The notes under the pieces were generated by a model. The model made no database searches. It worked only from the letters and a program-made list of their open reading frames with translations, and was not told the DNA's origin. This document shows positions 4,755-11,054 of a DNA stretch of 33,078 nt, one piece after another (the stretch's first letter is position 1; each line of letters opens with the position of its first letter). A program made the position numbers and the translations under genes. Source of the stretch: Actinomycetota bacterium (lineage in GTDB: Bacteria; Actinomycetota; Aquicultoria; Aquicultorales; JAMCWL01). The stretch covers positions 1-33,078 of the forward strand of contig JAMCWL010000039.1 of NCBI GenBank assembly GCA_023481285.1, in the 5' to 3' direction.

Positions 4755-5936
4755 CTAGGTCAAGCGCCAATTACGATCCAGAATGCCCCGCTTGCTCAGG
4801 AAAGACCAGAGGGCCCTGACCACCTTTGGATCGTAAAGAATGCTCTGGTCGCGCTTTATTTTTGCGAGAGCTTGTGCCTCGTTCAAACGCCTTTCAATGG
4901 TCATATCATTGGTGAGATCGTCAAAACGGCTGGCGACCGAGATGATGCACGCCCCGAAAGTCATTCCATTGGTGGCATAAGATGCGTGGTGCATTCTCAC
5001 CATCTCCGACGCGTCCCTCACGAACTCCACCTTTTCGATGATTTCGGCGCCTATGGCGGCGTGGTCTACGCCCGACTTTTCAGCTTCTTCATCGACGGCG
5101 ATCATGCCGATATCATGGAGCAGCGCCGCGTAACCGACCAGCTCGAGGTCCTTTCCGTGCAGTCCCATCTCCCTCGCTATGCCGGTGGCGATCTCGGCGA
5201 CGCGCTCCGCGTGCCCCCGCCTGTCGGGATTTTGGGCCTCGATGGTGTTTGCAAGGGCCTTGATGGTATTCGTGTAGACTTTGCGGATGTCCATGTAGAG
5301 CTTGAACGAGTGCCTGGTAACTACAAGAGGCAGAAAGAAGAAGAGAGCGCTCCACGCTCCCATCGTTCCGTAGAGGAGCGCCAGGAGAATGCCGAGGGAT
5401 GAGAAGGTCAGGTAAAGGGGGAAGAGAAACTTACCGGAAGAGGCGAGCGCGGACAAAGAGGGAACCCGGCGCCTCAGCTTCGACAGCTCGTCCATAAGGA
5501 TCTCAAAAGCAAAATAGGTGGTGGACATCGCAAAAAGGGCCGGAAATCCACCGATGGGATCTATCTTGCCAATCTCGCCCCTGAACAGGTAAAAGACAGC
5601 GGTAGCCGCCGTGGCCGTAACCGATTTACTCGTCACCACGAAACCGATGCCGCCGCTGTTACGCCACGATCTCTTGATTAGCGCAGCGATTAGCGTCCCA
5701 CCCGTGACGACGAGCAGCGTTTTCGGCAACGGCAAGAGGGCGATACTGGCGACCACAACCGCACCGTCAACTGAAACCGATCCTCCCTGGGGGAGTTGGA
5801 CATCCATCAATCCGGCGATGACCGCGCATGCCACAAAGAAAATGGCGGCCAGGCCCAGCTTATCCATCCACACAAAGGGCAAGAATACGACCAGGATAAT
5901 GAGGCCCAGGATGACGACGATTGCCTTTATGAGCAC
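4755..5936 (-). CDS. Membrane-anchored HD-domain protein, degenerate HD-GYP paralogue
   Basis: The N-terminal two thirds is a multi-pass membrane region. The C-terminal third is an HD phosphohydrolase domain that keeps GHAERVAEIA, LLHDIG, a downstream DHAAIGAEII and VRMHHAS, all likely metal ligands. Compared with the neighbouring paralogue it lacks the HHExxDGxGYP loop: the region reads MHHASYATNGMTFGACIIS, with the GYP and the following GLxGxxIP segment deleted. HD-GYP proteins usually hydrolyse cyclic di-GMP, and the GYP loop helps bind it, so this copy may have another substrate or a regulatory role. An ATG at 6014 would overlap the upstream gene by 71 bp. I prefer GTG at 5936, just after the upstream stop (5944), which suggests translational coupling. 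It is probably a tandem duplicate. Confidence 0.85.
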   Translation of the reverse strand: MLIKAIVVILGLIILVVFLPFVWMDKLGLAAIFFVACAVIAGLMDVQLPQGGSVSVDGAVVVASIALLPLPKTLLVVTGGTLIAALIKRSWRNSGGIGFVVTSKSVTATAATAVFYLFRGEIGKIDPIGGFPALFAMSTTYFAFEILMDELSKLRRRVPSLSALASSGKFLFPLYLTFSSLGILLALLYGTMGAWSALFFFLPLVVTRHSFKLYMDIRKVYTNTIKALANTIEAQNPDRRGHAERVAEIATGIAREMGLHGKDLELVGYAALLHDIGMIAVDEEAEKSGVDHAAIGAEIIEKVEFVRDASEMVRMHHASYATNGMTFGACIISVASRFDDLTNDMTIERRLNEAQALAKIKRDQSILYDPKVVRALWSFLSKRGILDRNWRLT

Positions 5937-5943
5937 CAGCTCA

Positions 5944-7245
5944 CTAAGTTTTCTCCGTAACAACCTCTTCGGCCCCTTTCCGGGATTCAAGCTCCTGGTA
6001 GTAGTCCGTCGCATCGAGAAAGGCCTGCACTGTCGCGGAGTCGAACTGAGAACCGCTGCACCGGATTAGTTCATGATAAGCATCCTCGACGCTCATCGCG
6101 TTCCGGTATGGACGGGCGCTCGTCATCGCGTCAAAGCTGTCGGCGACGGTAAGAATTCTGGCCATAAGGGGGATTTCCTCTCCCTTCAAACCGAAGGCAT
6201 AACCGTTTCCGTCGACGTGCTCGTGGTGATAGAGAACGGCCGAGAGGGGCTCTCGGAGGAAATCGACCTCGTGTATTATTTGCGCTCCAATCTTTGGGTG
6301 TTCCTGTATAAGCTGATACTCGTCGCTTGAAAGCTTGCCCGGCTTGCTCAGGATCTTGCGCGAAACGCCGATTTTCCCGACGTCGTGGAGGAGGGCGGCA
6401 TACCGGATCATCTCGATCATCGCCTCGGAAAACTTCATATAACGAGCTATTTTTTCCGCGTACTCCGCAACTCGCTCCGAGTGCCCGCGCGTATACGGGT
6501 CTTTAGCTTCAAGCGCCTGGACCAAGGAGCGAACGGTCTCAAGGTAGGCGTTCTTCAATTTCATATAGACCTGGAAGGTCTGGCGGGCGATGAGAAGAGG
6601 GATGATGAGAAGGGAGATTCCCACAGCGCCTGTACCCGAATATAGGTAAGCGAGTACGACTCCGATAACCGTAAGAGCAAGATGGTTAGGTACCATCCAC
6701 TCGTACTGGTAGGCCCAAATGCTAAGTGGAGAACTATCTTCAGCAATACCAACATAGATTGAAACGAAAAATGTATTGGCCAGGAAAAATGTTGCAGCCG
6801 CCAGAAAAATCGGCAAAAGGGCAAATGGATAAGATAGGTGTGATGGATTACCGTAGGTTCCGCCTGCCAAAAGGTAGACGATTCCGGCAAGGCCCATTGA
6901 GATGGCCAACTGTCCGGCGTTAAAGCCCATTGTGAGAGCCGGCAGCCGCAATCTCAGATCGTCCCAGTTAAAAACGGATACCGCCTCGATAAGCGCTGCC
7001 GCGGCCGGGCCGAAAAGAAGTAAAGCGGAGAAGGTTACCAGAAAACTAACGGACATTGCAGCGCTCTTTTGAAGATTGATTTTCAGCGACTCGGAGACGA
7101 TGGAAAGGAAAGCAAACAAAAGTACTTCCGGCCAGTCCCTAGCGATGGCTTGACCCCATCGCATTAGGAGAAACGCCAGAAAGAATAGACCGCCAAGGGC
7201 GACGGCTAACCGGTAATTCTGAAAGCCAGGCGACGCTCTTCCCAT
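5944..7245 (-). CDS. Membrane-anchored HD-GYP domain protein (putative c-di-GMP phosphodiesterase)
   Basis: The 433-residue protein has about eight hydrophobic segments up to residue 222, then an HD-GYP domain. Visible motifs are GHSERVAEYA (254-263), LLHDVGKIG (285-293, the HD pair), EHPKIGAQII (315-324), YHHEHVDGNGYAFG (339-352) and VADSFDAMTSARPY. The GYP tripeptide is GYA, a small deviation; all expected metal ligands are present. Family members cleave cyclic di-GMP to pGpG or GMP at the inner face of the membrane. It is first of a likely three-gene operon with the degenerate paralogue and DUF5317, under a TATAAT promoter just upstream. The membrane domain may sense an unknown signal. Activity is inferred. 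Confidence 0.9.
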   Translation of the reverse strand: MGRASPGFQNYRLAVALGGLFFLAFLLMRWGQAIARDWPEVLLFAFLSIVSESLKINLQKSAAMSVSFLVTFSALLLFGPAAAALIEAVSVFNWDDLRLRLPALTMGFNAGQLAISMGLAGIVYLLAGGTYGNPSHLSYPFALLPIFLAAATFFLANTFFVSIYVGIAEDSSPLSIWAYQYEWMVPNHLALTVIGVVLAYLYSGTGAVGISLLIIPLLIARQTFQVYMKLKNAYLETVRSLVQALEAKDPYTRGHSERVAEYAEKIARYMKFSEAMIEMIRYAALLHDVGKIGVSRKILSKPGKLSSDEYQLIQEHPKIGAQIIHEVDFLREPLSAVLYHHEHVDGNGYAFGLKGEEIPLMARILTVADSFDAMTSARPYRNAMSVEDAYHELIRCSGSQFDSATVQAFLDATDYYQELESRKGAEEVVTEKT

Positions 7246-7261
7246 CCGTCTTTCACTAGTG

Positions 7262-7284
7262 ATTATAGCCCTAAACCAAGGGCT
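7262..7284 (-). promoter_or_regulatory. Promoter -10 with overlapping palindromic operator for the HD-GYP operon
   Basis: A perfect TATAAT (minus strand, 7267-7262) lies 17 bp upstream of the HD-GYP start, implying a very short leader. The palindrome AGCCCT-N6-AGGGCT (7267-7284) fills the region where the -10/-35 spacer would be. The -35 hexamer is poor, as expected of a promoter needing an activator or blocked by a repressor binding the palindrome. The binding protein is unknown. Confidence 0.5.
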
Positions 7285-7332
7285 TGCTCTTTATGTAATT
7301 GAAATTATCGGAAGATAGCCCAGAAAAATTAA

Positions 7333-7548
7333 TGGACCGACATCATTTTTAGCAAATCTTACCTGCCGGTTGTGCCCGCGCCGCCAGCGAGAATGAGGCT
7401 GGCGAGAGTGGCCAAAGCCAAAAAAATCCTAGCCTTCATTTGAAAGGAGACCCCCCAGAGGGTTTTTCCTTCTCCGCTTAATCGGAAAGGAGAGGCCGCT
7501 CCGCTTTGGTATGGCTTTACTTACGACTGTTTGCTTGATGTCGGTCCA
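7333..7548. repeat. Segment bounded by 13-bp perfect inverted repeats (possible MITE or hairpin RNA)
   Basis: TGGACCGACATCA at 7333-7345 (as written TGGACCGACATCA on plus) is repeated in perfect inversion at 7536-7548. The 190-bp interior contains a 7-bp hairpin, CGCCAGC/GCTGGCG, several short G-rich and C-rich stems, and a 26-codon open frame with a signal-peptide-like sequence on the minus strand. This accounts for most of the 310-bp gap between the HD-GYP gene and the next gene. Terminal inverted repeats suggest a non-autonomous mobile element, but no target duplication is clear. A long-range RNA stem is equally possible. Confidence 0.6.
7359..7439 (-). CDS. Possible 26-residue hydrophobic peptide
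   Basis: A short frame from ATG at 7439 encodes a peptide beginning MKARIFLALATLASLILAGG and ending GAGTTGR. This is a positively charged start, a hydrophobic core and a small-residue end, as in a signal peptide or single-span micropeptide. There is no well-placed Shine-Dalgarno site; a GGGGGG run lies about 15 bases upstream. It sits wholly inside the 13-bp inverted-repeat segment, so it may belong to that element. It may equally be chance in GC-rich sequence. Confidence 0.3.
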   Translation of the reverse strand: MKARIFLALATLASLILAGGAGTTGR

Positions 7549-7555
7549 AACTTAA

Positions 7556-8221
7556 TTATATCGTTTTCAAGAAGCTGAAGCGACGGTTTATCGCATCGAG
7601 GGTCGCCCGGACAATCGAGTCCTTATCATTCTGCCGAACCAGGGCAGAGCCGGCGAGACTGCTCTCACCGGATGAACCAACAAGGGTTATGCAGGCCACA
7701 GCCACTTTCTCTTTACCCAGATCAGCTACGGTCACATCCTCCAGCGCAAAGCAGAAAGAGGACGGGATAAATTGGGAGACGGCATCGAGCGTCGCTTGCG
7801 CCACCAGACGCAGCCTCTCCGTCTGTGACGAGGCCCCCTGGGCGACACCCTCGTAAAGCATATCGCCCATCCCCAAAGTAACCGCCGCCTTGGCCCTGAC
7901 CCCGGTCACCTCCATGTTGACGCTGGCGATCTGGAGTCGTGGCTTCGAGCCGTTCCCGTCGACCTCCTCAGGCCTTTCTTGCTGGCTAACCTGGGCTACG
8001 CTTACTTTGCGGTGGTTGACGGGTATGCCAAAGCGGGCCATAAGAGTGGTCTCCACGTCTCTCACCAGTTGCTTCGCGCCCTTCCCAGGCGCAGCGACGA
8101 TGTGGATCTCCTCGATGCTGTTGTCGGGAGCTACGACGATCCGAGCCGCCTGTACATCATCAAGTTGACAGAGAGCATCCTCGATCTCCGCTATATTAAA
8201 AGCTTCCGATATGATATCCAT
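7556..8221 (-). CDS. Hypothetical protein with internal duplication
   Basis: I do not recognise a named family. The 221-residue soluble protein starts with a short alpha/beta region (MDIISEAFNIAEIEDALCQL), then a charged linker (about residues 76-93). Two similar units follow. Each has alternating beta strands, a small glycine-rich turn and a helix ending in ATLDA: unit 1 about 95-148 (KAAVTLGMGDMLYEGVAQG then ATLDAVSQF), unit 2 about 153-216 (VAVACITLVGSSGESSLAGS then ATLDAINRRF). The pattern loosely recalls the LeuA dimerisation fold, but that is only an impression. The ATG at 8221 follows AAGGGATAAG, a good ribosome binding site. It lies between the hpf repeat element and the inverted-repeat segment, so it is probably transcribed on its own. 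Confidence 0.8.
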   Translation of the reverse strand: MDIISEAFNIAEIEDALCQLDDVQAARIVVAPDNSIEEIHIVAAPGKGAKQLVRDVETTLMARFGIPVNHRKVSVAQVSQQERPEEVDGNGSKPRLQIASVNMEVTGVRAKAAVTLGMGDMLYEGVAQGASSQTERLRLVAQATLDAVSQFIPSSFCFALEDVTVADLGKEKVAVACITLVGSSGESSLAGSALVRQNDKDSIVRATLDAINRRFSFLKTI

Positions 8222-8496: not shown

Positions 8497-9063
8497 CTAG
8501 CCCTTACCGAAAATAGGCTCAATTAGGCCATAATTCTTGTCCCTACGCCTGTAGACTACATTTAGCTCGTCCGTTTCCGAGTTAGTGAAGACGAAAAAGT
8601 CATGGCCCAGAAGCTCCATCTGGAGAGCCGCCTCTTCCGTAGTCATCGGTTTCAGGGATACCCGCTTGGTCTTAACCACCTTCGGGCCGATTTCACCGGT
8701 TTCGGAAATCGTTTCGCCGGAATGCTGTAGGGCGAGCTCCGCCAGCCCACTCGCCTGTTTATGCGACCCGTAAAGTTTGCCTTTATACTTCTTGATCTGC
8801 CGTTGAATCTTGTCGACCACGCCGTCTATCGAAGCGTACATATTGTCGGTCGAGGCCTTCCCCCTGATAAGCGGTCCTTTCGTGTGGAGCGTCACCTCAG
8901 CGGTCTGCGGATTTGGGACGCTCGGGTTTTTGTCGACAATAAGTTCGATCTCTACCTTGGTAATCTTCTCCAGGTACTTCGTCAGTCTTGAGACCTTGTC
9001 CTCCGCGTAACGCCTTAACGCGTCGGTCACTTCTATATGGCGCCCCTTTATGATGACTTCCAT
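8497..9063 (-). CDS. hpf: Ribosome hibernation promoting factor, long form (HPF/RaiA)
   Basis: HPF binds the 30S decoding region and, in its long form, pairs 70S ribosomes into inactive 100S dimers during starvation. The 188-residue protein has the N-terminal S30AE domain (MEVIIKGRHIEVTDALRRYA, then KPSVPNPQTAEVTLHTKGP-like core). A variable linker follows (about residues 105-130), then the C-terminal dimerisation domain starting VVKTKRVSLKPMTTEEAALQ and ending in FTNSETDELNVVYRRRDKNYG. Length matches the long-HPF family. A strong GAGGAGGAG ribosome site lies 8 bases before the ATG. It is flanked by cspA upstream and a palindromic element directly downstream, and lies a few genes from secA and prfB, a common Gram-positive order. 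Confidence 0.96.
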   Translation of the reverse strand: MEVIIKGRHIEVTDALRRYAEDKVSRLTKYLEKITKVEIELIVDKNPSVPNPQTAEVTLHTKGPLIRGKASTDNMYASIDGVVDKIQRQIKKYKGKLYGSHKQASGLAELALQHSGETISETGEIGPKVVKTKRVSLKPMTTEEAALQMELLGHDFFVFTNSETDELNVVYRRRDKNYGLIEPIFGKG

Positions 9064-9235: not shown

Positions 9236-9436
9236 CTAAACGGCTTTCTTTACGTTTGCAGCCTGTGGACCGCGCTCTCCTTGGACGATCTCGAATTCGA
9301 CTTTTTGGCCCTCCTCCAACGTTCTGAACCCGTCCATGTCGATGGCGCTGAAATGAACAAAAACATCATCCCCATCTTCGCGCTCGATGAATCCGTAGCC
9401 TTTCTCCGCGCTGAACCATTTGACAGTACCCAACAC
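9236..9436 (-). CDS. Cold-shock protein (CspA family)
   Basis: This small single-stranded nucleic-acid binding protein acts as an RNA chaperone. Starting at GTG 9436 it is 66 residues, [20 protein letters not shown] onward, with RNP1 (KGYGFI) and RNP2 (DVFVHFSAI) both intact and the usual family length. The frame stays open 18 codons upstream, but that extension is not homologous to Csp proteins. GGGAGG lies 10 bases before the GTG, a slightly long spacing, so the next codon (TTG) could also serve. It ends at its own terminator and lies upstream of hpf on the same strand. The specific paralogue cannot be named. Confidence 0.95.
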
Positions 9437-9567
9437 TTGATGCTTACCTCCCGTTTCCCAAGCCCTAGAACTTCGTTGAAAGGTTAGCATATAGAGCAGG
9501 AGGTTGGCAATATAGAGAATGTCTCGACTTAACCCCGTCCTCGTTTATACATGTTAAAATCTAGATA

Positions 9568-9833
9568 GGTTCCACCCAGGTCTGTGGTTGCGCCGTCGCC
9601 AACGTTATGGAAACGTCGGAGGGCGGATCCGTTTCCGAAAGCGAAGGCTAGTCCAGGCTAGGCGCGGGCGAAAGGATCCACGTAAGGCGGTCCAGAACCG
9701 CTGAGCATGGCGCGTCTTAGGAGTAAGTCCTGCCGTTATCAAAAGCGAGAGAGGTAGCAGTCGTGCAAAAGGCACTGGCGAGGCCTCCAGCAGGCGAGTG
9801 TGGGGTCAAAGACCAGGTCAGCTGGGTGGAATC
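9568..9833 (+). ncRNA. Candidate large structured RNA (possibly raiA-motif-like)
   Basis: The ends pair as a 12-bp stem: GGTTCCACCCAG (9568-9579) with CTGGGTGGAATC (9822-9833). Inside are further hairpins: ACGTT-ATGGA-AACGT (9602-9616), GCGGT-CCAGA-ACCGC, AGGA-GTAAG-TCCT, GTGC-AAAAG-GCAC, and a longer helix GGCGCG (9661-9666) with CGCGTC (9711-9716). Two pairs are G-U only if the plus strand is transcribed, and loops are purine-rich on that strand, so I place it on plus, antisense-oriented to its neighbours. A weak promoter (TCGACT-N16-TATACA, 9524-9551) lies just upstream. It is not tmRNA, SRP RNA or RNase P by signature sequences. The comF / hpf (raiA) neighbourhood is where raiA-motif RNAs are often found, but orientation and sequence identity are unproven. 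It accounts for most of the 424-bp gap between cspA and comF. Confidence 0.55.
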
Positions 9834-9860
9834 AAAAAGATCGAGGGGTCAACCAAAAAG

Positions 9861-10586
9861 TCAATCAATAACGGTTCTGGCGACCGTCGCGACCATCACC
9901 TCCACGGCGCCCGCCCGCTTGAGCGCCCGGGCGCATTCGCTGACCGTGCTTCCGGTCGTGTAGACATCGTCAATGAGAAGAACCCTACCGCGAACCGGCC
10001 GGACCGCCTCGAAAGCGTTCCGGACATTTCTACGACGCTCGTCAAAGGAGAGCTCACTCTGGGGTTTAAACGCGCGATTTCGAAGGAGAAGGGGAAGCGC
10101 CTTCCTTCCGAGGAGACTTCCAATGTCCGACGCGAGCAGCTCCGCCTGGTTGTAGCCACGCTTCGCTTCCTTTCCCCGCGTCATGGGAACAAACGTAAGG
10201 ACATCGGCGCTCATCAGTCTCTCATCAATACCTGATGTGACAAGCTCCGCCATCTGCCTGGAGAGTCGCTTGCCATTGCAGTATTTTAAGATGTGGATCG
10301 CCTCTTTAAGCGAGCCGTCATATCTCCCGGCCGCTTCTGCCGTGACGAACTTAAAACCTCTTCCTCGGCACTCCCGACATTCCGGTACCGCCAGCGCCGT
10401 CGGTTTGCCACAGCGCGCACACTTCGGGCCCGTAATCAGTGGAAAGGAGTTCAGACAGTCGGCGCAAATCGGCTTCCGGCTAAGGCGCCCGCAGACAAAG
10501 CATATTTCCGGAAATACGAAGGAGGCTAGGGCGTCGACCATAGCGCCGAGGCGCTCCCTGACCGCTTTGAGTTTTACCTTTTCCAT
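9861..10586 (-). CDS. comF: ComF family protein (amidophosphoribosyltransferase-like)
   Basis: ComFC-type proteins are linked to DNA uptake in competent bacteria and are widespread beyond them. An N-terminal double zinc ribbon is visible: CFVCGRLSRKPICADC, then CARCGKP and CRECRGRG. It is followed by a phosphoribosyltransferase fold with the PRPP-binding loop VLLIDDVYTTGSTVSE near the C-terminus, and the family motif RGYNQAELLA. I start at ATG 10586 (MEKVKLKAVR); the frame extends eight codons to a GTG at 10610 with no better ribosome site. The product is 241 residues, normal for ComFC. It precedes the structured RNA, cspA and hpf, matching the comF - hpf - secA order of many Gram-positives. 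No comEA, comEC or pilus genes are in the window. Confidence 0.93.
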   Translation of the reverse strand: MEKVKLKAVRERLGAMVDALASFVFPEICFVCGRLSRKPICADCLNSFPLITGPKCARCGKPTALAVPECRECRGRGFKFVTAEAAGRYDGSLKEAIHILKYCNGKRLSRQMAELVTSGIDERLMSADVLTFVPMTRGKEAKRGYNQAELLASDIGSLLGRKALPLLLRNRAFKPQSELSFDERRRNVRNAFEAVRPVRGRVLLIDDVYTTGSTVSECARALKRAGAVEVMVATVARTVID

Positions 10587-10627
10587 AAAGACGATTCTAA
10601 CCCAAAGCACCCATGCGCAAAAGCACT

Positions 10628-11012
10628 TTAGCTATCAGTTATCAGCTATCAGCTAAAAGCCTCACATGCGATTCCGGTTTCTTGGTTTCTTGGTTGCTGG
10701 TTTCTTGGTTTCCTGGCAACCCCATCTTGAGGGCACCAACTGGGCCATCCAGCGGAAGATAAATCTTTATTACATCGCTACAGCAGTCGGATCCTTGCGT
10801 GCACTTAAAGTTTGGTGCATCACTCAACTATCTACCATGGTACCAAGGTACTACGGTACCAAGGTGCCAGAGGCGCCTCCAATAAGCATACGGAGATTCC
10901 AAGAAACCAAGAAACTAGGAGACTAAGAAACCAGCAGAGCGACGAGGTGAAGATAACCGATGGGGCTCTAAAAAGCTGGAAGCTAGTGGCTGGTAGCTAG
11001 AAGCTAAAGGCA
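10628..11012. repeat. Word-repeat island with 17-bp inverted repeat
   Basis: The 468-bp gap between comF and the AEC permease gene holds no credible gene. It starts with GCTATCA words (10630-10656), then tandem GGTTTCTTGGTTTCTTGG (10676-10693). The unit GTTTCTTGGTTTCTTGG recurs in perfect inversion at 10899-10915. Between them is a direct repeat of GGTACCAAGGT (10840s and 10855s). A third word type, built on AGCTGGAAGCTAGTGG, closes the island near 10973-11008. It could form a large hairpin or cruciform. Confidence 0.7.
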
Positions 11013-11054
11013 CCTGTGCTGACCGAGCAGAGATGTAAAGCGTGAAGCACCTAC

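Follow-up and report, generated by a model that had tools for sequence, protein, structure and literature searches.

A raiA-motif (ModT) RNA gene oriented against comFC, cspA and hpf in an uncultured Actinomycetota bacterium

We analyzed a window of 33,078 nucleotides from an uncultured Actinomycetota bacterium (the whole stretch of DNA considered here; contig JAMCWL010000039.1 of assembly GCA_023481285.1). On its minus strand, Pfam searches identified the genes for comFC, a cspA-like cold-shock protein and the ribosome hibernation factor Hpf/RaiA, in agreement with a sequence-only reading that had placed these genes on the strand opposite to a large structured RNA (Table 1). For comFC, the domain Pribosyltran additionally scored just under the Pfam cut-off. 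Between hpf and secA, the minus strand (4755-8221) encodes two membrane HD-domain proteins and an unknown protein of 221 aa; one of the HD-domain proteins is HD-GYP-like, carrying HDVGK and HHEHVDGNGYA (Pfam HD_5, MASE9). The intergenic region at 10630-11030 contains repeats (TTTCTTGGTTTC..., AGCTATCAG..., GGTACCAAGGTAC...) that have 95 matches in the same genome and are an abundant dispersed repeat family.

Table 1. Coordinates of the RNA, its structural elements and its neighboring genes in the window
Feature	Position	Strand	Evidence or remark
hpf/raiA, ribosome hibernation factor	8497..9063	-	Pfam Ribosomal_S30AE and its C-terminal domain
cspA-like gene for a cold-shock protein (divergent from the RNA)	9236..9439	-	Pfam CSD
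Candidate extended -10 element, TGT-TAAAAT	9552..9560	+	5/6 to TATAAT; P1 starts ~7 nt further on
raiA-motif (ModT) RNA	9568..9833	+	cmscan RF03072
P1, 5′ strand	9568..9579	+	pairs with 9822-9833; helix 1: both-side changes at 14/15 pairs, 98% of cells paired
P2 arm, long inner hairpin	9592..9648	+	base pairs 9592-9599 / 9641-9648, one G.A mismatch
P3 stem-loop	9653..9675	+	loop gives one half of pk-1; base-pair swaps
pk-1, 5′ half (AGGCGCG)	9660..9666	+	pairs with 9711-9717 (CGCGTCT); 7 pairs
P5 hairpin	9686..9702	+	6/6 pairs covary
pk-2, one half (UG)	9708..9709	+	pairs with 9807-9808 (CA); covariation
P6 (9729-9733/9790-9794), enclosing P7 and P8	9729..9794	+	larger "variant 2" form
P1, 3′ strand	9822..9833	+	an A-run, and no T-run, comes next
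comFC, convergent with the RNA	9861..10610	-	~28 nt past the RNA 3′ end; Pfam DZR_2 (E 2.6e-9)

The region between cspA and comFC had been read as a possible new RNA in a setting suggestive of the raiA motif. A cmscan search against Rfam 15 matched RF03072 (raiA motif, also ModT) to positions 9571-9830 of the plus strand with 163.3 bits (E = 2.3e-41), 62 bits above the gathering score of 101.3 bits. The match covered all 209 model positions (1-209) and was the sole Rfam match across the whole 33-kb window; no minus-strand Rfam match was found at the RNA. The match on the plus strand only, together with the homologues described below, fixes the RNA on the plus strand, as had been proposed. The suggested setting was thus confirmed, and the full-length match refuted the notions of a possible new RNA and of a distinct class, a strong Rfam match having been named beforehand as the outcome that makes the RNA known rather than new. 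The genome carries a single raiA-motif RNA, that of the window. It is a new member of an already described family, not a new RNA class, and is ordinary for its family except in orientation.

A repeat search found a perfect 10-nt inverted repeat (9570-9579 / 9822-9831) with 242 nt between its arms, which G9569.U9832 and G9568-C9833 lengthen to a 12-bp stem. This closing stem had been read correctly from the sequence, as had the presence of at least five internal helices: P2, P3, P5, P6, P7 and P8 are present along with the pseudoknot pk-1, and P1 occurs with the conserved GUCUGUGGUU / ACCAGGUCAGC core. Folding energies were -107.8 kcal/mol for the plus strand (z = -2.56 against dinucleotide shuffles) and -92.0 kcal/mol for the minus strand (z = -2.49). 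The plus strand therefore does fold better than shuffled sequence; however, both strands do so to a similar degree, so that energy alone cannot choose between them, and strand choice by folding energy was rejected. The predicted minimum-energy fold is also not the true fold, because such a fold cannot hold pk-1.

We aligned 37 homologues and counted pairs for a structure following the Rfam model and the cryo-EM description (PMC11751092), pseudoknot included. Under the published fold, 96.2% of cells were paired, compared with 75.4% in shuffles and 33-46% in slid structures, the window being the reference for the structure, so that the percentage paired is biased towards it and double changes are less affected. 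Both-side changes occurred at 45 of the 58 pairs, and double-changed cells numbered 446 against 143 in shuffles. Helices P1, P2, P5, P6 and P8 all covary (4/5 pairs in P6 and 4/4 in P8), and P3 shows C-G/G-C swaps at 9654/9674 (24:13) and 9658/9668 (34:3). For pk-1, 99.6% of cells are paired, with both-side changes at 4 of 7 consecutive pairs, and pk-2 is U-A in 33 homologues, C-G in 3 distant ones and mismatched in 1. By this sequence comparison, the homologues support the published fold, including the seven-pair pk-1.

The structure of a raiA-motif RNA has already been solved. In the excerpts available of the cryo-EM descriptions (PMC11751092, PMC12286853), the C. acetobutylicum RNA resembles that of the window in a seven-pair pk-1 joining the P3 loop to the pk-loop, a two-pair pk-2 and a variant-2 P6-P8 domain. 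The same excerpts describe no P2 arm, whereas in the window P2 breaks into the discontinuous GNRA-like turn between P1 and P3. In the RF03072 model, which leaves out P3, the cryo-EM pk-1 appears as an ordinary nested stem between model positions 33-39 and 86-92. What Rfam called as an insertion of 57 nt (9593-9649) is the P2 arm, whose base covaries at 8/8 pairs in relatives and which, though long, folds on its own at -24.1 kcal/mol in the window. P2 is optional in the family, forming a hairpin in most relatives and missing from some (L005, L006, L050, L053, L062 and L064, where the sequence is GGUUGAAAGUC). We also observed raiA RNAs with a short P6 (variant 1) at L028 (1501-1678), L029 (1501-1692) and L032 (2006-2208); L028 and L029 belong to the window's class, so that both P6 variants occur within one class.

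Of 60 relatives, 32 carry the RNA, among them every one of the 11 genomes from the same order; in a sample of 297 genomes from across the phylum, 111 carry it. Among named genomes, the closest Hpf was 62% identical (MAG Yes46-11). Most loci have comFC and hpf adjoining the RNA, which is the known raiA-motif setting (PMC11706538), a common one although members of the family need not have it. We examined orientation at the 107 loci where comFC is no more than 1.5 kb from the RNA. In 98 of them comFC precedes the RNA, on its strand, and in 8 the two are divergent; only in the window does comFC lie 3′ and convergent. Likewise, hpf lies past the 3′ end of the RNA, in the same direction, at 88 of the 89 loci within 1.5 kb, the window being the exception. 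The gene cspA points away from the RNA also in the 11 same-order relatives, because comFC and the RNA are there jointly turned against the cspA-hpf block, and at one locus (L216) hpf, the unknown 221-aa gene and both HD-domain genes lie on the strand opposite to the RNA. The RNA is directed away from cspA in all members of the order that were sampled. We accordingly rejected the idea that the window alone is opposite to cspA and hpf; unique to it is that comFC did not turn along with the RNA. Orientation to the neighbors varies across bacteria (PMC11706538) as well as within this order, and the opposite orientation, contrary to what had been suggested, does not make the RNA a distinct class.

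Upstream of the RNA, the TGT-TAAAAT element stops about 7 nt short of P1, which would put the expected transcription start at the first P1 base. Of 82 non-redundant RNAs, 59 have a match of at least 5/6 to TATAAT upstream, whereas 13 have one on the antisense side; in the window the match is 5/6 upstream and at best 3/6 on the comFC (antisense) side. Consensus scans found no -35 at consensus spacing before the RNA, nor any intrinsic terminator-like site past it on the plus strand, and a generic sigma-70 scan found no promoter at the RNA. Of 104 analyzed RNAs, 39 have a T-run after P1; the window has an A-run instead. The -10 box just upstream, as in relatives, suggests that the RNA probably has its own promoter. 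With the -10 on the 5′ side of the RNA and only 3/6 on the other, the promoter element seemingly travelled with the RNA. On the minus strand of the comFC-RNA gap (9834-9863), TTGAC occurs twice, as does a T5 run. A putative orphan -35 in this gap, TTGACC, seen by eye, would have stood 17 nt from the -10 before the putative inversion. One or both TTGAC motifs may be a left-behind -35 of the RNA promoter.

The orientation in the window would most likely have arisen by a local inversion of the RNA along with its -10 element. Recombination within the P1 arms alone is disfavored because it would leave the -10 on the comFC side, whereas it sits at the 5′ end of the RNA. Starting from the usual order comFC-RNA-cspA-hpf, we infer that the simplest history has two separate events: comFC and the RNA inverted together in the sister family, and the RNA inverted by itself in the window. 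Of 20 loci that bear the RNA, about half have an HD-GYP relative (c-di-GMP phosphodiesterase type) close to it, and among named hpf loci HD-GYP goes with the RNA (6/10 against 6/46; Fisher p = 0.004, with phylogeny not controlled). This association is of interest because loss of the RNA raises c-di-GMP in C. difficile. A broader proposal, that the raiA-motif gene and its -10 form a unit inverted repeatedly beside comFC in this order and that the HD-GYP neighborhood reflects a conserved link between the RNA and c-di-GMP, strikes us as distinctly doubtful.

Other readings were weighed. A distinct new RNA class merely occupying the raiA setting might be suspected from neighbors that run opposite to the RNA and from the 57-nt insertion against the Rfam model. 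Yet the insertion is P2, which most relatives have; pk-1, pk-2, P1, P6 and the invariant core are common to the window RNA and its relatives; and the full-length RF03072 match stands 62 bits over the gathering score. Compared with the RF03072 family, the window RNA shares P1, P3, P5-P8, pk-1, pk-2 and all model positions, the comFC and hpf/raiA neighbors and a -10 element at the 5′ end, and differs in being convergent with comFC and divergent from cspA/hpf, in its long P2 arm and in the lack of a T-run after P1. The Rfam match rules out a new class, to which we leave next to no chance. Alternatively, the RNA may be a genuine raiA-motif RNA that lies on the same strand as comFC in the organism, its inverted orientation being an assembly error. 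The orientation is unique among 107 loci and comes from one draft assembly of 115 contigs, with no second genome of the family among the 60 relatives. Against this, the inverted-repeat arms are just 10-12 nt long, too short to mislead the usual assemblers, the -10 element seems to have moved along with the RNA, and the cspA-RNA junction is rearranged in the 11 same-order relatives too. We regard such an error as unlikely.

A further reading is that the RNA acts in cis on cspA, hpf or comFC, as a riboswitch or as a leader. Rfam types RF03072 as "Cis-reg; riboswitch", and in most of the phylum hpf is located downstream of the RNA and shares its strand. In the window, however, the RNA is not in the leader of a same-strand gene, since comFC, cspA and hpf are all on the other strand, and no plausible same-strand gene lies downstream until 28195; cspA points away in the 11 same-order relatives as well. 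In two clostridia, C. difficile and C. acetobutylicum, deletion of the RNA was complemented in trans (PMC11706538). A cis-acting role therefore appears very improbable, and a protein-bound or ribozyme-like RNA is likelier than a riboswitch at this locus. The raiA-motif RNA is very abundant in growing clostridia, forming a stable transcript in C. difficile, and its deletion slows the stationary-phase transition, impairs sporulation and raises c-di-GMP (PMC11706538). The intact core, the lack of any possible leader role for comFC, cspA or hpf and the long distance to the next plausible plus-strand gene fit an independent trans-acting RNA, not a cis riboswitch. The window RNA would thus be transcribed alone, from its own promoter, fold into a compact P1-P8 / pk-1 / pk-2 structure and, like its counterparts in Clostridioides difficile and C. 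acetobutylicum, influence growth transition in trans, a function transferred from Bacillota.

We put the probability that 9568-9833 is a raiA-motif (ModT) RNA gene of an uncultured Actinomycetota at about 0.95, a figure that covers the whole explanation, including the inferred transcription, fold, trans action and inversion. The finding is settled as a known, structurally solved RNA family. The turned copy amounts to a small natural experiment, in which fold, core sequence and promoter element were kept without a shared transcript with comFC, cspA or hpf. It favors an RNA that acts independently and in trans, and is a reason to reconsider the Rfam type label, which is at odds with recent data and with this locus.
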